Source: a virus. Taken from it: 32,056 bases of DNA. A program made the translations under genes and the position numbers. Shown here in pieces: positions 4,598 to 32,056 of this stretch. The notes under the pieces are model-generated. The model was not told where the DNA came from and ran no database searches. It worked only from the letters and a program-made list of their open reading frames with translations. The stretch spans positions 1-32,056 of the IMG/VR virus record IMGVR_UViG_3300005613_000264; one strand, 5' to 3'. Numbering within the stretch: position 1 is the stretch's first letter; every line of letters begins with the position of its first letter.

Positions 4598-5172
4598 TGG
4601 CAACTTATTCTTATGATAGTTCCGAACCTGCATCAAATTCTAATCCTAGCGATAGTCAACCAATAATGCTTACAAACGCAGCTTCTATCAGTAGTATAAT
4701 AGCTGTAGATCATGTAGGTTTTAATACAGCTAATGGAGGTTTTCACAAGCAAGTTTCTTTTAACGGGAATAACAGCGCTGGAGCTCAAACAGGAAATCTA
4801 TCGACGATATTTACCGAAGCGGGAACAGCTTCAGGAGAACCTGTTGCCAAAATTAAGAATTCTAAGGGAACTTTTCCCATGTCTTTGTTAAAAGCTGCGG
4901 GTTCTTTTGCGGATTCTTCTGGAACCAGTTCTTTTATTTCCAGTGTAAACTGCGTTAGTATTTCTTATGCTTCCAGTGTGTTTACGATTACTCTTACCTC
5001 TGGGGTTACTACAGGGAACAATGTTTTAGTGTTTACAAGTTATCAAGCAATAGCAAATCCTCCTACTGGGTTATCGGCAGGACCCGGATATTATTTTGAT
5101 AGCAACGTGCTTTATATTCGATCTATAGGCGGACTGGGAGCCACTATTAGTTTTCTAGTTTATCAGATTTAG
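4597..5172 (+). CDS. Probable tail-associated protein with VDHV motif
   Basis: A 191-residue Ser/Asn/Gly-rich protein, translationally coupled to the connector by TAATG overlap. After a flexible N-terminus it carries AVDHVGFNTANGGFHKQV (near residue 36), a short motif recurring, by memory, in structural and fibre proteins of related podoviruses, and then alternating beta-type sequence ending GATISFLVYQI. It is likely a virion or tail component, but no specific role can be assigned. Ordinary composition compared with neighbours. Confidence 0.7.
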   Translation: MATYSYDSSEPASNSNPSDSQPIMLTNAASISSIIAVDHVGFNTANGGFHKQVSFNGNNSAGAQTGNLSTIFTEAGTASGEPVAKIKNSKGTFPMSLLKAAGSFADSSGTSSFISSVNCVSISYASSVFTITLTSGVTTGNNVLVFTSYQAIANPPTGLSAGPGYYFDSNVLYIRSIGGLGATISFLVYQI

Positions 5173-8936: not shown

Positions 8937-9586
8937 TGGCACAATTATTTCCATCAGTAAAAAAGACACCTTCATTCGGATCCATGTTAGGAGGATCAAT
9001 TGCTGGTGGGTTACAAAGAGGATATGAGTCGGCTCAAAATTTTGCCGATCAGCTAGATCTTCAAGAAAGAAAATCACAATCTTTTAATGAAGAATTAAAG
9101 AGAGTTGAAAAAATTAATGCCCTACAAGGTGCGCTGAGCACTATAGAAAGAATGAGAGAAATAGGTTCCAAGGGTAACTTAGGAAGAGGTTCTCAATTTC
9201 TAGGTTATTTTGGAGGAGAAACAGCACGGGATAGAGGAGAATATGAGCAGTTAGGAAAATCTTTAATACAATTGTCGACAACTATTCCCATTCGTAACCG
9301 TCAAGAATTTGAGACTTTAGCTGGAAGATTATATGATTCCTCTCTTCCTGATCAAGAAAGGGAAGGTGTTTTAACAGCAATGCAGTCAATAATTCAAAAT
9401 TCTCTAGGGGGACCATCAGTTGATCCAAGTCAAAGAGATGAAGAAATATTTGAGAAAGTGACTGAAAAGATTCAATTTAATCCTCAAAATGCAACTCACA
9501 GGAAAAAGGCTGAGCAACTTTATAAAACTTATAAAGATAAAGATAAAGTCAGGAAGATTTTATCGAAAGAGTTTGACGGACTATGA
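8936..9586 (+). CDS. Putative internal virion protein, helical
   Basis: The 216-residue product begins with a glycine-rich stretch (SMLGGSIAGGLQRGY, near residue 17) and continues as a highly charged helical protein rich in Gln, Glu and Lys. It is coupled at both ends: TAATG with the gene before and ATGA-type overlap with the gene after. Position between two similar genes suggests an ejection-protein trio like P22 gp7, gp20 and gp16. No enzymatic motif seen. Confidence 0.65.
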   Translation: MAQLFPSVKKTPSFGSMLGGSIAGGLQRGYESAQNFADQLDLQERKSQSFNEELKRVEKINALQGALSTIERMREIGSKGNLGRGSQFLGYFGGETARDRGEYEQLGKSLIQLSTTIPIRNRQEFETLAGRLYDSSLPDQEREGVLTAMQSIIQNSLGGPSVDPSQRDEEIFEKVTEKIQFNPQNATHRKKAEQLYKTYKDKDKVRKILSKEFDGL

Positions 9587-11034
9587 ATAATTATGATCCA
9601 TTATCCTTCTTAGATGTAACGGAAGAAATAGAAACTCCATCTCAACAAGATTCCCTTTCTTTTTTAGACGATTCTCCTAAGTCATCGATGAGAAAACAAG
9701 CTCGCAGAGCGGCTCAGTATGGTATAGGTCTTGCTCAATCGGCTATGGCTCCTTATGATGTAGCTACATCTACCCTATCATCTAAAAAAGCTCAACAAGT
9801 ACCATATAGAGAAAATCTTTTTCAAGACATCGAGAGGCTACAAGAACAAAAGCAAATGGGGCAATTTGACCAGCAAGATGAAGAGCTTTTGTCTCATTTA
9901 ATGTCTCAAGCTAAGAATCCTCAAGAATCCGAAAAGTTTATTAAAACAGCTAATATAGATACTGGATCTGTTATTGAAAAAATATCTAAACAGTTTGGAG
10001 TGGATTTAGAACCAGAGGATGCATCTGAGTTAATTTCTCGTTTTTCTGGTAACATATTGAGTCCTAAAAACATAGCTAAAATACCTTCTTTTTTAAAGCA
10101 ATTAGGGTCTAAAAAAGCTAGAGATGCTGCTAAATGGAAATCTTTAGAGAGTGGGGCAAAAGGAGACGCTTACAAGGTTAACATGCTTAACTTTGCTAAA
10201 GATAAAGGGTTAACTACTGAAGAAGCTTCTGTATTAATGAAATCTCCAAAGTTTATAGAGAATCTACAAAGAGTGGCTAAAAAGTCTCCTAAATATAAAG
10301 AAGTAGCTAAAGGATTAAAAACTAAACTGGGAAAAGAATACGATAATTTAAAGAAAATAGGGAGAGATGGAGGTCCCATTAGTGCCGACAAGCTAGAGCC
10401 TTTAGTAGAAGATCTAACGATTATGAAAGAAGATTTGGGTAGAACATTAGTTGAAGGCCCTGATCTTAAATCAGCACGAAAAGGGATTGAAGATACTTTA
10501 AATAAATTAGAATCCAGAGGTGCGGATTTAGAAACATTAATTAATTCTAGAAAAGAGTTAGGAAAGTTAGCTGATTGGAGGAATGTGAGTGAGGGAGATG
10601 CTATTTTGCACAATGCCAGAAAATCCTTTACTAAAGCGATAGATGATATCAATCCGGCAATTGGAAAGCGACTAAAGGAAAATGATGCAGCTTGGAGTAA
10701 GTATAAAAAATTATCTAAAGATTTACATAAACCCAAAATGATCAGTATTAAGGGACTACAAGTTCCCGCTGAAAATATAGCGTTTGTAGCCGCTCCGTTG
10801 CTTCATATAGCAAGTGGAGGAACAGCATTAAAAGTTTATGCTGCGAAAGAAGCTGTTCAGAGATTATCTACATCTATGATTTTAAATCCTAGGCTAGATA
10901 GCCTTAGAAAAAGAATGGTTCAATCGATGTTAAATGGGGAAAATGTCAATAAATATGGAGCTTTGATAGCCAAGGTGTTGAAGGAAGATGAGCCTGATTT
11001 ATATGAAGAGCTTACTTCTTCTAAAAAAGATTAA
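9583..11034 (+). CDS. Putative internal virion (ejection) protein, large
   Basis: A 483-residue, almost wholly helical protein. It starts with a repeated acidic motif (DPLSFLDVTEE, then DSLSFLDDSPK), possibly a docking peptide, followed by long Lys/Glu-rich helices with coiled-coil character and one hydrophobic segment near residues 400-425 (IAFVAAPLLHIASGGTALK). Large helical proteins with one amphipathic or membrane-like segment are typical of the last ejection protein. I see no lysozyme or transglycosylase motif. The stop codon shares bases with the stop of a convergent gene at 11031. Confidence 0.65.
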   Translation: MNNYDPLSFLDVTEEIETPSQQDSLSFLDDSPKSSMRKQARRAAQYGIGLAQSAMAPYDVATSTLSSKKAQQVPYRENLFQDIERLQEQKQMGQFDQQDEELLSHLMSQAKNPQESEKFIKTANIDTGSVIEKISKQFGVDLEPEDASELISRFSGNILSPKNIAKIPSFLKQLGSKKARDAAKWKSLESGAKGDAYKVNMLNFAKDKGLTTEEASVLMKSPKFIENLQRVAKKSPKYKEVAKGLKTKLGKEYDNLKKIGRDGGPISADKLEPLVEDLTIMKEDLGRTLVEGPDLKSARKGIEDTLNKLESRGADLETLINSRKELGKLADWRNVSEGDAILHNARKSFTKAIDDINPAIGKRLKENDAAWSKYKKLSKDLHKPKMISIKGLQVPAENIAFVAAPLLHIASGGTALKVYAAKEAVQRLSTSMILNPRLDSLRKRMVQSMLNGENVNKYGALIAKVLKEDEPDLYEELTSSKKD

Positions 11035-11165
11035 TACATATCCTCTGCATAAGGATCATCCGCACAAGGATCATTATAGTCTTTTTTTCTATTGTCCCAC
11101 ATCTCTTGTAGAGCTCCTCCAAATACTAGATATAGAAGAAAAAAACCTGCTATAAATTCATTCAT
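11031..11165 (-). CDS. Small single-span membrane protein, 44 aa
   Basis: A short convergent gene: ATG at 11165 after CTAGGAGATAAGT, a strong ribosome site, ending at 11031 in bases shared with the stop of the ejection gene. Residues 3-19 (EFIAGFFLLYLVFGGAL) form one membrane helix; the tail is acidic and Asp/Tyr-rich (DDPYAEDMY). With no endolysin or holin recognised elsewhere, a lysis or envelope role is possible but unproven. Its leader is unusual: a GGNNN array and an adjoining hairpin (11187-11256) lie between its probable promoter and its ribosome site. Confidence 0.65.
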   Translation of the reverse strand: MNEFIAGFFLLYLVFGGALQEMWDNRKKDYNDPCADDPYAEDMY

Positions 11166-11186
11166 ACTTATCTCCTAGTTTAAAAT

Positions 11187-11204
11187 GAGAATCCTAAGAC
11201 TCTC
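11187..11204 (-). terminator. Hairpin with short U-tract, possible attenuator
   Basis: On the minus strand GAGAGTC (11204-11198) pairs with GATTCTC (11193-11187) over a TTAG loop, with one G-U pair, then ATTTTAAA follows. The shape is that of a weak intrinsic terminator placed between the GGNNN array and the ribosome site of the 44-aa gene, so it could act as an attenuator. Pairing is seen; the regulatory role is inferred. Confidence 0.45.
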
Positions 11205-11256
11205 CCTTACCTCACCTGGCCTGACCGCTCCGGACCCGTCCATTCCAACCCTTACC
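11205..11256 (-). repeat. Eleven-unit phased GGNNN (CCNNN) array
   Basis: On the plus strand CC occurs at 11205, 11210, 11215, 11220, 11225, 11230, 11235, 11240, 11245, 11250 and 11255, always exactly five bases apart. The trinucleotides between are TTA, TCA, TGG, TGA, GCT, GGA, CGT, ATT, AAC, TTA, so only the dinucleotide and the phase are kept. The stretch is GC-rich in an AT-rich genome and lies in a gap between two minus-strand genes. On the minus strand it is G2N3 repeated, able in principle to form two-layer quadruplexes. Confidence 0.85.
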
Positions 11257-11258
11257 GC

Positions 11259-11286
11259 ATTATTTAACTTCAATATACTACTTCAA
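11259..11286 (-). promoter_or_regulatory. Predicted minus-strand promoter before the array
   Basis: On the minus strand TTGAAG (11286-11281) and AATAAT (11264-11259) are 16 bases apart, close to the sigma-70 consensus. A start point six to eight bases downstream would fall within the first units of the GGNNN array, so the leader of the 44-aa gene would begin with it. Prediction by eye only. Confidence 0.5.
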
Positions 11287-11311: not shown

Positions 11312-11506
11312 TTATAACTCATCCTCAATCAATTCAATAATTTTGTTTAAAATAGGATTCCTAATTTCAATTTGCAAATCTTGACAAAGGTCATAAATTT
11401 TTTCAATGGTTCGATCGGCTTGCTTAATTTGTTTCATGGTCTGTTGCAAATCTACTAAAATCTTATTCATAACTTCCTCAATTTTCTTAAGTCTATCCTG
11501 TTTCAT
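11312..11506 (-). CDS. Small coiled-coil protein, unknown
   Basis: A 64-residue, entirely helical protein with Ile/Leu at heptad positions (VMNKILVDLQQTMKQIKQAD), probably a short coiled coil. The first ATG (11506) lacks a clear ribosome site; a second in-frame ATG at 11470 follows GAGGAAGTT and would give 52 residues. It lies alone on the minus strand before the array region, opposite in direction to its structural neighbours. No family recognised. Confidence 0.5.
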   Translation of the reverse strand: MKQDRLKKIEEVMNKILVDLQQTMKQIKQADRTIEKIYDLCQDLQIEIRNPILNKIIELIEDEL

Positions 11507-12360: not shown

Positions 12361-12699
12361 ATGGGATATAAAAACGCAGCTACATTTGATAGCCTTAGAT
12401 CTGTAGCATTTGGATCTATTACAACAAGTTATGCAATAGTGGGATCCACTTTGCCTTCACCGGCAGTAGCAGTTACTTTTAAAAATAATACAGATGGGCT
12501 TATTTTACTTTCTTTGGATGGATCTACCGACATGTTAGTGTTCCCATCGGGTACTTATTCTGTGTATGACGTGCGGACAAACGCCCCAAATGTAACAGAT
12601 TATCTTCTTTCGGAAGGAACACCATTTTTAATAAAATATAGTGGTAGCGCTCCCACAACAGGATCGTTTTACATAGAAGCATTACTCTTACAAACCTAA
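12361..12699 (+). CDS. Small conserved virion protein
   Basis: The 112-residue protein is beta-rich with ITFKNNTDG-like sequence (VTFKNNTDGLILLSLDGS near residue 39) and ends SFYIEALLLQT. Proteins with this length and pattern occur among tail or baseplate genes of environmental phages as unnamed conserved proteins (recall). AAGGATCCAAATT gives a fair ribosome site. It lies between two fibre-like genes on the same strand and is probably a structural partner. Confidence 0.65.
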   Translation: MGYKNAATFDSLRSVAFGSITTSYAIVGSTLPSPAVAVTFKNNTDGLILLSLDGSTDMLVFPSGTYSVYDVRTNAPNVTDYLLSEGTPFLIKYSGSAPTTGSFYIEALLLQT

Positions 12700-12709
12700 T
12701 AGGTATTTC

Positions 12710-13348
12710 ATGAGTCAGGTTGGACTATTAACGATAAATACCGAAACACCTGTAGATGTCGCTACTTCATTTGTAACTGACAGTGGAACAGCCGTTCCAG
12801 CAGCCAATGCTTTGACAGTAGCCGGTGGTAACCTTTTAAATACCGCTGGATCAGGAGCCACTGTAACAGTAAATGCAGATGATAACGTAGTAGGTTCTGT
12901 CTTATCAGATTCTGGAACCGTTACCCCAGCTTCTAATGCTTTTTCTATAGTAGGAACAGGAGGCATTACAACTTCTGGTGCAACTTCGATTATAACAATC
13001 GACGGATCTGGAATTAGCTCATTTTCTTGGGTTGTCGAGTCAGGAACTACTCACAGTTTAGCGGTCAATACAGGAGTATTTTGCAATAACGGCGCTGGAG
13101 TCACAGTAACGTTGCCAGCGGTAGCGGCTGTAGGTAATTCTTTTCAGGTCGTTGCAATGGATGCGGCCGGATTTACCATAGCACAACAAACGGGGCAAAC
13201 AATCCAAGTAGGAAACGATTCTACAACTACTACTACGGGTACCATTGTATCTACTGCCATAGGAGATTGGGTAGAAATAGTTTGCAATGTAGCTAATACG
13301 AATTTTATAGCTAACATAAAACAAGGCGGGGCGATTACGACAACATGA
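12710..13348 (+). CDS. Fibre protein with repeated beta domain
   Basis: A 212-residue Thr/Ala/Val-rich protein. Two internal repeats (FVTDSGTAVPAANALTVAGG and LSDSGTVTPASNAFSIVGTG, near residues 21 and 64) precede a C-terminal domain with GFTIAQQTGQTIQVGN, TTTTTGTIVST and VEIVCNVANTNF. That C-terminal domain is also present in the broken gene that follows at 13345, so the two are paralogues. The stop overlaps the ATG of the next frame (ATGA). Likely a receptor-binding fibre. Confidence 0.7.
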   Translation: MSQVGLLTINTETPVDVATSFVTDSGTAVPAANALTVAGGNLLNTAGSGATVTVNADDNVVGSVLSDSGTVTPASNAFSIVGTGGITTSGATSIITIDGSGISSFSWVVESGTTHSLAVNTGVFCNNGAGVTVTLPAVAAVGNSFQVVAMDAAGFTIAQQTGQTIQVGNDSTTTTTGTIVSTAIGDWVEIVCNVANTNFIANIKQGGAITTT

Positions 13349-13795: not shown

Positions 13796-14431
13796 ATGCC
13801 TGGAACAATTAATGCCTTAAATAACTTGTCTTCTGAATTTACCGTGGATAATTTGTTTCTTAATGGAAATACATTATCTAGTACTTCGGGTGATTTAGTA
13901 ATTGAGTCGGACGCCACTAACGATATTCAATTTTTTAATGGGACATCTACATTATTAAATATGACATCATCCGGAGAACAAACATTGCCTTTACAACCGG
14001 CGATGTTATCTATTGTCAGCCCTAATCTTAATAATGTAACAGGAGATGGTACTAACTATACTGTAGTGTGGAATAATGAAATTTACGACCAAGGCAATGA
14101 TTTTACTTCCCCCACTTTTACTGCTCCTGTAACAGGTAAATACTTAATATGCGTTTCTTTAGGATATTCAGGTTTAGATGCTTCGACTTCAGGGAGTATG
14201 GTTATTAGTACCTCAAATCGTAATTTTTCGTATTCTACAAGTGCTGGAGGAGCTTTGACTGTTTCGGGAGGACAAACAAGTTTGACAAGTTCAGTAGTAG
14301 CTGATATGGATGCCGCTGATACATGCAGTATTCGGACATCTGTATCAGGAGCAGGAGCAGATACGGTAGACTTAATCCAGACAAGTGGAGTAACTTTTAG
14401 GTGTTGGTTTTCCGTAACTTTATTAACTTAA
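13796..14431 (+). CDS. C1q-like fibre head protein
   Basis: A 211-residue protein. After a short beta N-terminus (FLNGNTLSSTSGDLVIESD) residues 75-211 look like a C1q/TNF-like jelly roll: VTGDGTNYTVVWNNEIYDQG, FTAPVTGKYLICVSLGY, ADMDAADTCSIRTS and a final FRCWFSVTLLT. Such domains form trimeric tips that bind surface ligands, so this is a good candidate receptor-binding protein. AGGAGAATAAA gives the start. The intact copy follows directly after a broken fibre gene, so this cluster turns over quickly. Confidence 0.75.
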   Translation: MPGTINALNNLSSEFTVDNLFLNGNTLSSTSGDLVIESDATNDIQFFNGTSTLLNMTSSGEQTLPLQPAMLSIVSPNLNNVTGDGTNYTVVWNNEIYDQGNDFTSPTFTAPVTGKYLICVSLGYSGLDASTSGSMVISTSNRNFSYSTSAGGALTVSGGQTSLTSSVVADMDAADTCSIRTSVSGAGADTVDLIQTSGVTFRCWFSVTLLT

Positions 14432-24846: not shown

Positions 24847-24918
24847 GGATTAGTAGCTCAGTGGAAAAGCAGAGAGTCGTTAACACTCTAGTCGCAAGTT
24901 CGATTCTTGCTTAGTCCT
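24847..24918 (+). tRNA. tRNA-Asn-like gene with unusual anticodon arm
   Basis: GGATTAG (24847-24853) pairs with TTAGTCC (24911-24917) with two G-U pairs; D arm GCTC...AAGC is weak; the T arm GCAAG/CTTGC with loop TTCGATT is perfect. In standard spacing the loop is T-C-GTT-A-A, so Asn(GUU), but position 33 is C instead of T and the stem has an A-A mismatch. A register shifted by one gives a perfect stem AGAGT/ACTCT with UUA at 34-36, but then G at 33. No CCA is encoded. It may be a degenerate or specialised tRNA. Confidence 0.75.
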
Positions 24919-31142: not shown

Positions 31143-31814
31143 ATGAGCACAGAGTCCTATGTTGAAAAAACCGAAGATAGAGTGGAAACCCCCCAAGTCT
31201 CGGATAAAGAGCTTAATTTCAGAAAACAAGAAGCTATGTTCCAAAGAAAACTTGAGCAAAAAGAAGCAGAACTCGCGGAAATCCGCAAACAATTGCAACA
31301 AAAGGCCGCGGGATGGAACACAGAATCAGACGAAGAAGAAGACGATGAGCCCTATGTCGACAAAAGAAAGCTTAATAAAACGCTGGATAAGTTTGGTCGG
31401 AAGTATAAAGAAGAAACTAGCTCAGATATTAAGCGGGCGGTAAACGAAGCACTGGCCGAAGAGCGCAAGCAAAACTGGATAAAAGCCAATGGGGACTTTA
31501 ATGAGGTAATGCAACATGCTCAAAAGTTTGCAGATCTGGATCCAGAACTAGCAGAGACCATATTGACTATGCCTGACACGTTTGAAAGGCAGAAGCTGGT
31601 ATATAAAAACATTAAGGCTCTGGGCCTACATAAGCCAAAAGAAGAAAAGTCTTCTGTTCAATCCAAAATAGATCAAAATAGAAGAGGCCCTTTTTATCAA
31701 CCTACCGGCATGTCAAACGCTCCTTATGATGCTGTGGGAGACTTTAGTCCGGCAGGGCAAAAAAGCGCTTATGACAAGATGAAAGAGCTAAAAAATAGAT
31801 TACGGCTCGGTTAA
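31143..31814 (+). CDS. Capsid scaffolding protein
   Basis: A 223-residue highly charged helical protein: an N-terminal coiled coil (FQRKLEQKEAELAEIRKQLQ, residues 33-52), an acidic run (DEEEDDEP near 62), further helices and a basic end (YDKMKELKNRLRLG) that would bind coat protein. These are marks of scaffolds, and it directly precedes the coat gene across the circular junction. AAGGAGAAATTA gives the start. No protease motif seen. Confidence 0.8.
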   Translation: MSTESYVEKTEDRVETPQVSDKELNFRKQEAMFQRKLEQKEAELAEIRKQLQQKAAGWNTESDEEEDDEPYVDKRKLNKTLDKFGRKYKEETSSDIKRAVNEALAEERKQNWIKANGDFNEVMQHAQKFADLDPELAETILTMPDTFERQKLVYKNIKALGLHKPKEEKSSVQSKIDQNRRGPFYQPTGMSNAPYDAVGDFSPAGQKSAYDKMKELKNRLRLG

Positions 31815-31933: not shown

Positions 31934-32056
31934 TACGTTTTTCTCGTACGTTATCGAGAGTCGCGTAAGTGGTTTCGCACCCATGTCAGATATGATAGAG
32001 AACGGATGTAGTTACGCTTTCGTCCACGGGTCTACATGTCAGGTATGAATTGACAA
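31934..32056. repeat. Right copy of 123-bp terminal overlap
   Basis: Identical over its whole length to bases 1-123 and located at the extreme end. See the left copy: the overlap lies within the coat leader, which favours a circularly permuted genome joined by the assembler. Confidence 0.9.

Follow-up and report, generated by a model that had tools for sequence, protein, structure and literature searches.

The virus genome analysed here, a 32,056-bp IMG/VR record (hereafter the window), carries on its minus strand at 11205–11256 a (GGNNN)11 tandem repeat that is very probably an element of the vrRNA type, the guide RNA of the Viral Interference Programmable Repeat (VIPR) systems described for Escherichia phage SUSP1 and a P. 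fulva prophage (bioRxiv 2026; PMC13142463). As set out in the available part of that report, a VIPR system consists of a small RAMP protein, the Cas7/RAMP-like Vipr, and of vrRNAs loaded on it, each made of 9–16 pentanucleotide GGY/NN repeats with a constant GG ('a related consensus' being allowed), hypervariable NN bases and an invariable structured 3' tail; the NN bases read the DNA target with one base skipped per pair (the 1-nt skip rule). Seven diverse types were reported, and some systems have just one vrRNA. Because a vipr gene was sought in the window and not found, we do not file the window as a complete VIPR system; the most economical reading, which we hold tentatively, is that of a guide dependent on the Vipr of another replicon, and a decoy fits nearly as well.

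A phased GG array with a fused hairpin

On the plus strand the array appears as CC at 11205, 11210 and so on to 11255, giving 11 copies at an exact 5-nt spacing with variable triplets between them; on the minus strand the triplets of the units read, 5' to 3', TAA GTT AAT ACG TCC AGC TCA CCA TGA TAA GAG, the eleventh of which is already the start of a hairpin. Nowhere else in the whole record is there a (CCN3)7 or (GGN3)7 run, and a scan of the window at periods 4 to 8 revealed no second tract comparable to it. Calculated from dinucleotide frequencies (CC 1111, GG 1551 in 32,056 bp), the number of runs of at least 11 units expected by chance in the window is 1.1 × 10−10, which bears out the preliminary description, where the phased CC copies were reported and a chance origin was judged negligible. 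An origin from polyG or simple repeats was excluded because the triplets are diverse; the first 10 units hold 8 different NN dinucleotides. The third base is Y in 6 of the 11 units, compared with 71–100% in arrays that have Vipr in their locus.

The array was also correctly placed in intergenic, noncoding sequence, as it lies between a gene at 9583–11034 (+) and an ORF at 11312–11506 (−). The label 'ejection gene' that had been given to the former was not confirmed, its 483-aa product being without a Pfam or PHROG match. No relative was found for the latter, which encodes 64 aa and precedes the array on the minus strand; a Vibrio phage blastn match (E = 3 × 10−4) covers the end of this ORF, does not include the array and was set aside. 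Just downstream of the array lies a 44-aa ORF (11031–11165, −) with a ribosome-binding site, AGGAGA, at 11171–11176; its N-terminus is hydrophobic, its C-terminus is acidic, and a Pfam search gave no match.

Fused to the last GG is a hairpin at 11187–11204 (−), GAGAGTC-TTAG-GATTCTC, located by inspection of the sequence and a hairpin scan, which has 7 pairs, is followed by ATTTT and is a candidate vrRNA tail or weak terminator; it was neither favoured in the global minimum-energy fold nor called as a terminator. The global fold of the array RNA showed no gain in stability over shuffles (z = −0.40). A promoter-like site (TTGAAG-16-AATAAT; 11259–11286, −) matches the consensus at 9 of 12 positions and ends 2 nt before the first GG; as a promoter of the array it is suggestive only, two such sites having been found with 2.5 expected in shuffles.

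Period-5 arrays and the Vipr family in IMG/VR

IMG/VR was searched blind with the bare pattern (GGN3)10, which occurred in at least 120 contigs. PolyG or simple repeats account for about 12 of the 120 contigs listed; nearly all of the remaining listed contigs carry one to several arrays in which the third base is pyrimidine-rich and the last two bases are highly diverse. An iterated profile search, seeded with the ORF beside the arrays of a capsid relative of the window (L035), converged on 85 proteins in 85 loci. A gene of this family was present in the fetched stretch of 82 of the 120 listed contigs, at a mean column identity of 22% and usually adjacent to the array, and a search of whole records located it elsewhere in four more (L131, L160, L176 and L179). 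The profile, although built without PMC13142463, finds the SUSP1 Vipr (ALH47069.1) at 6.5 × 10−47, beside a (GGN3)12 array. On sequence homology, therefore, the array-linked protein family is Vipr; it corresponds to phrog_4652, which PHROGs lists as of unknown function. The AlphaFold model of the L035 protein (pLDDT 91.9) had its best PDB matches by Foldseek among Csm and type VII CRISPR effector subunits (E about 10−8), so that the family combines a predicted RAMP/Cas7-like fold with a profile match to the SUSP1 Vipr. Scanning raw sequence for the bare pattern (GGN3)10 thus suffices to locate VIPR loci. In one contig (L106:6311–7015) two unbroken (GGN3) runs close to a Vipr gene reach 41 and 43 units, far above the published 9–16, and these possibly represent overlapping (staggered) vrRNAs.

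The window array shares part of its variable sequence with one Vipr-linked array. A 22-nt block comprising units 4–7 (ACG, TCC, AGC and TCA with the flanking GG; 11221–11242, −) is identical to positions 5166–5187 of contig IMGVR_UViG_3300031760_000830 (L241), which is its single exact match in IMG/VR and has it in the same phase. There the block belongs to a period-5 array that begins right after a Vipr gene (profile E = 4.8 × 10−40); L241 is an unrelated phage contig with no protein in common with the window. From the triplet frequencies of the arrays examined, about 0.001 occurrences of this particular block are expected in a million array windows, and the chance of the block as a plain 22-mer over IMG/VR is estimated to be of order 0.01.

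It is very unlikely that the array is something other than a vrRNA, such as an unrelated regulatory leader of the 44-aa ORF, a G-quadruplex, a CsrA or TRAP site, or a Rho-loading site. It does lie a short way 5' of a small ORF that has a ribosome-binding site, and its G strand could form two-layer G-quadruplexes; however, across IMG/VR arrays of this pattern go together with one protein family, the four-unit block is common to the window and a Vipr-linked array, no Rfam match there reached the gathering score, and the fold z-score is close to that of shuffles. The G-quadruplex and CsrA/RsmA readings of the preliminary description are unsupported, the pattern being explained otherwise, and its plus-strand reading as a Rho-loading site lacks support because the orthologous arrays, without exception, lie beside a Vipr gene and are read from the strand that bears GG. 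A TRAP-type ring binder, suggested by the 11 units at period 5, was dropped because the arrays proved to be linked to a Cas7-like gene; their constant dinucleotide is GG, not (G/U)AG. What stood was the relevance of the minus strand, together with the proposal that a fixed dinucleotide between changing spacers points to selection on phase, perhaps for a binder of several subunits, since Vipr is Cas7/RAMP-like and the published vrRNAs are pentanucleotide repeats. The triplet spacers are not filler: in vrRNAs they form the guide, with 2 of every 5 bases specifying the target. Taken as a whole, the earlier interpretation is partly supported.

A closed genome and its Vipr-bearing relatives

Positions 1–123 of the window are repeated exactly at 31934–32056 as a 123-bp direct terminal repeat; the genome is therefore closed and complete at 31,933 bp, and the lack of vipr is not an end effect. 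Its genes include those for a P22-like portal (PF16510), a terminase, a major head protein (phrog_1357), a DnaB-like helicase, Erf, a RecE-like exonuclease and RusA, and the gene order agrees with that of relatives, the gene at 31143–31814 lying directly 5' of the capsid gene as it does in L006, L008 and L009. The window also encodes a tRNA at 24847–24918 (+) whose anticodon, UUA, would recognise UAA stop codons (ARAGORN; Rfam tRNA, 47.5 bits); TAA ends 18 of the 27 main genes of the window, and the tRNA is a possible suppressor.

No Vipr was found in the window by the iterated profile, by the profile with filters off or by a six-frame search of the genome, and an hhalign comparison of the Vipr profile with every window ORF of at least 90 aa gave no probability above 1.5%. 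We regard it as decidedly unlikely that the window holds a complete VIPR system whose Vipr lies elsewhere in the genome and is too divergent for the profile. The diversity reported for VIPR (seven types and one-vrRNA systems, in the part of PMC13142463 available) speaks for such a protein, as do several window ORFs of 110–250 aa without a match and the IMG/VR sample, in which some 22 plausible arrays likewise have no detected Vipr. Unmatched window proteins are encoded at 12361–12699, 12710–13348 and 13796–14431. Against it, the profile extends to 82 contigs at that low mean identity and to SUSP1, every window ORF compared remained within the hhalign limit given above, and no candidate lies beside the array, the usual position of Vipr.

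The fusion of array and hairpin seen in the window recurs in the Vipr-less L104, L118, L186 and L205 (records of 17–56 kb that may be incomplete). A hairpin at offset 0 was present in 4 of 22 loci without Vipr and in 2 of the 87 with it (Fisher P = 0.015; the comparison was made post hoc, the numbers are small and the loci were counted by hand). In L186 (5563–5627, −) the Vipr-less GGY array is followed by a perfect 11-bp hairpin and lies on a phage contig beside genes that by eye resemble those of sialic-acid-type biosynthesis (NeuB/CMP-transferase-like).

In a set of 80 loci from capsid relatives, a single one, L035, carries four (GGN3)7–12 arrays; queries with the neighbouring genes P0001 and P0004 identified no relatives of the window. 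Vipr is encoded in 5 of the 50 full records of the capsid family of the window (L008, L009, L025, L035 and L042), and the other 45 have neither Vipr nor arrays, indicating that VIPR is frequently gained and lost. Perfect runs of (GGN3)7 or more occur in L025, L035 and L042, all within the five Vipr records, and in none of the 45 Vipr-less records; since such runs are confined to Vipr-bearing relatives, the window stands alone among the 51 in having a perfect array but no Vipr. The array of L008 has a degenerate GGY form, and that of L035, beside the Vipr gene, has the form GG[A/C]. The condition named earlier as counter-evidence, relatives without any period-5 signal, holds at the exact gap only, because Vipr-bearing relatives have period-5 arrays elsewhere in the genome.

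Further features were observed in these relatives. L009, whose capsid protein is 92% identical, carries GTT/NN arrays at period 5 on both sides of its Vipr gene (800–2300, −). In the record of L042 (L238 and L237), at least seven vrRNA-type arrays surround a Vipr gene that itself spans the contig ends, placing this locus among the richest VIPR loci of the phage family. A terminase-like ORF of L035 (1563–3281, −) has an insert judged by eye to be intein-like (C-VTSETKIRLL ... MIANGIVTKN-C).

The array may also be a relic, the last drifting vrRNA of a former VIPR locus that lost vipr, which we consider unlikely. The proportion of family records with and without Vipr (5 and 45 of 50) and the relaxed third base are consistent with such a loss; however, all 22 G of the units are intact while up to 5 of the 11 third bases are off Y, so that simple neutral decay from GGY is improbable (P about 0.001–0.004 under a simple site model that assumes a GGY ancestor, although L035 has GG[A/C], and that becomes somewhat weaker, at 4 of 10, when the hairpin triplet is excluded).

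Possible roles and comparison with known systems

In the guide reading that we prefer, the minus strand from 11187 to 11256 would be transcribed into an orphan vrRNA in which each 5-nt unit would present its constant GG to a single protomer of a Vipr filament, and the two bases that close each unit (AA TT AT CG CC GC CA CA GA AA) would spell a gapped DNA target with one base skipped per pair. Because no vipr gene was found in the phage itself, the RNA would work in trans; it may be loaded onto an outside Vipr, putatively supplied by the host, by a prophage or by a second phage in the same cell, and the loaded Vipr could then repress a competitor, much as mini-CRISPR arrays use host Cas proteins. 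That the window array works as a guide in trans is in our judgement slightly less than an even prospect.

By the 1-nt skip rule the guide reads xAAxTTxATxCGxCCxGCxCAxCAxGAxAA. The full guide of 10 dinucleotides had no exact match in IMG/VR, and 8 dinucleotides gave 11 matches there, with 4–6 mismatches in the rest, which is not above chance. A search of GTDB genomes with 9 dinucleotides returned 7 matches where about 7 were expected, in unrelated proteins and frames. Within the capsid-family loci and all loci examined, targets of the window array stayed at control level; the arrays of Vipr-bearing relatives likewise had no target above chance in the same sets, so the missing target in the small family set says little. 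The orphan guide of L104 had no exact target in IMG/VR. Taking all three N as the guide with 0–3 skipped bases gave nothing above shuffled controls. In L206 the first ten dinucleotides matched at 20 of 20 positions, but this hit was discarded: about 0.5 matches of that quality are expected in the collection, and the locus is an ordinary Bacteroidetes chromosome.

A decoy, that is, an anti-VIPR RNA, is also conceivable and in our view fairly unlikely: a vrRNA mimic would titrate or misassemble the Vipr that a rival phage or prophage makes, and so protect its own phage, and its NN bases would need no target. A single Vipr-less array with a perfectly kept GG, a relaxed third base and no target above chance fits this role, Vipr-bearing relatives exist in the same phage family, and solitary CRISPR repeats that act as RNA anti-CRISPRs by binding Cas6f/Cas7f provide a precedent (PMC10651486, in the part available). 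However, a decoy requires neither hypervariable NN bases nor four units identical to the guide of another phage.

Whether as guides or as decoys, the Vipr-less arrays with a fused hairpin (the window, L104, L118, L186 and L205) have about an even chance of forming a stand-alone class of vrRNA by which phages parasitise or block the VIPR of competitors. If vrRNAs do travel without Vipr, guide and effector would be separable in nature, and one phage could take over, or jam, the guide-loaded repressors of another. Such elements would be a natural source of VIPR inhibitors and would allow cross-loading between Vipr types to be tested directly in the laboratory, in a system known only since 2026 and proposed as the ancestor of CRISPR effectors.

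Among known RNAs, the TRAP leader has eleven (G/U)AG triplets at about 5-nt spacing that are read by a protein multimer. The window array resembles it in the number and spacing of its units and differs in its constant GG element and in belonging to a kind of array that co-occurs with a RAMP protein.

The likeness to VIPR vrRNAs extends to the constant GG every 5 nt, a unit count (11) within 9–16, the variable dinucleotides, and the intergenic and phage-borne location; the hairpin that caps the tract at its 3' end is a candidate for the structured tail. Unlike the published systems, the window is a closed genome with a single array, no vipr or vap gene and no target found, and its third base is not restricted to Y (GGN/NN rather than GGY/NN); in contrast to the SUSP1 tail, its tail is a short 7-bp hairpin fused directly to the last GG and present in a single copy. 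The kind of element has thus been described already (2026), whereas the Vipr-less, hairpin-fused form of the GGN type is absent from the main text of PMC13142463, as far as the part available extends.

Two further parallels come from CRISPR biology, each drawn from the available part of its source. Virus-borne mini-CRISPR arrays of Sulfolobales viruses, in which closely related viruses carry spacers against each other (PMC6858448), are similarly guide arrays in viral genomes without effector genes, plausibly serving virus–virus conflict; they differ in having CRISPR repeats and contiguous spacers, and in the window no target was found. The RNA anti-CRISPRs termed Racrs (PMC10651486) are, as the window element may be, phage-encoded RNAs that stand alone, imitate a guide RNA and have a RAMP-type (Cas6/Cas7) protein for a partner; what Racrs reproduce is the constant CRISPR repeat, whereas the window array also has a full variable tract.
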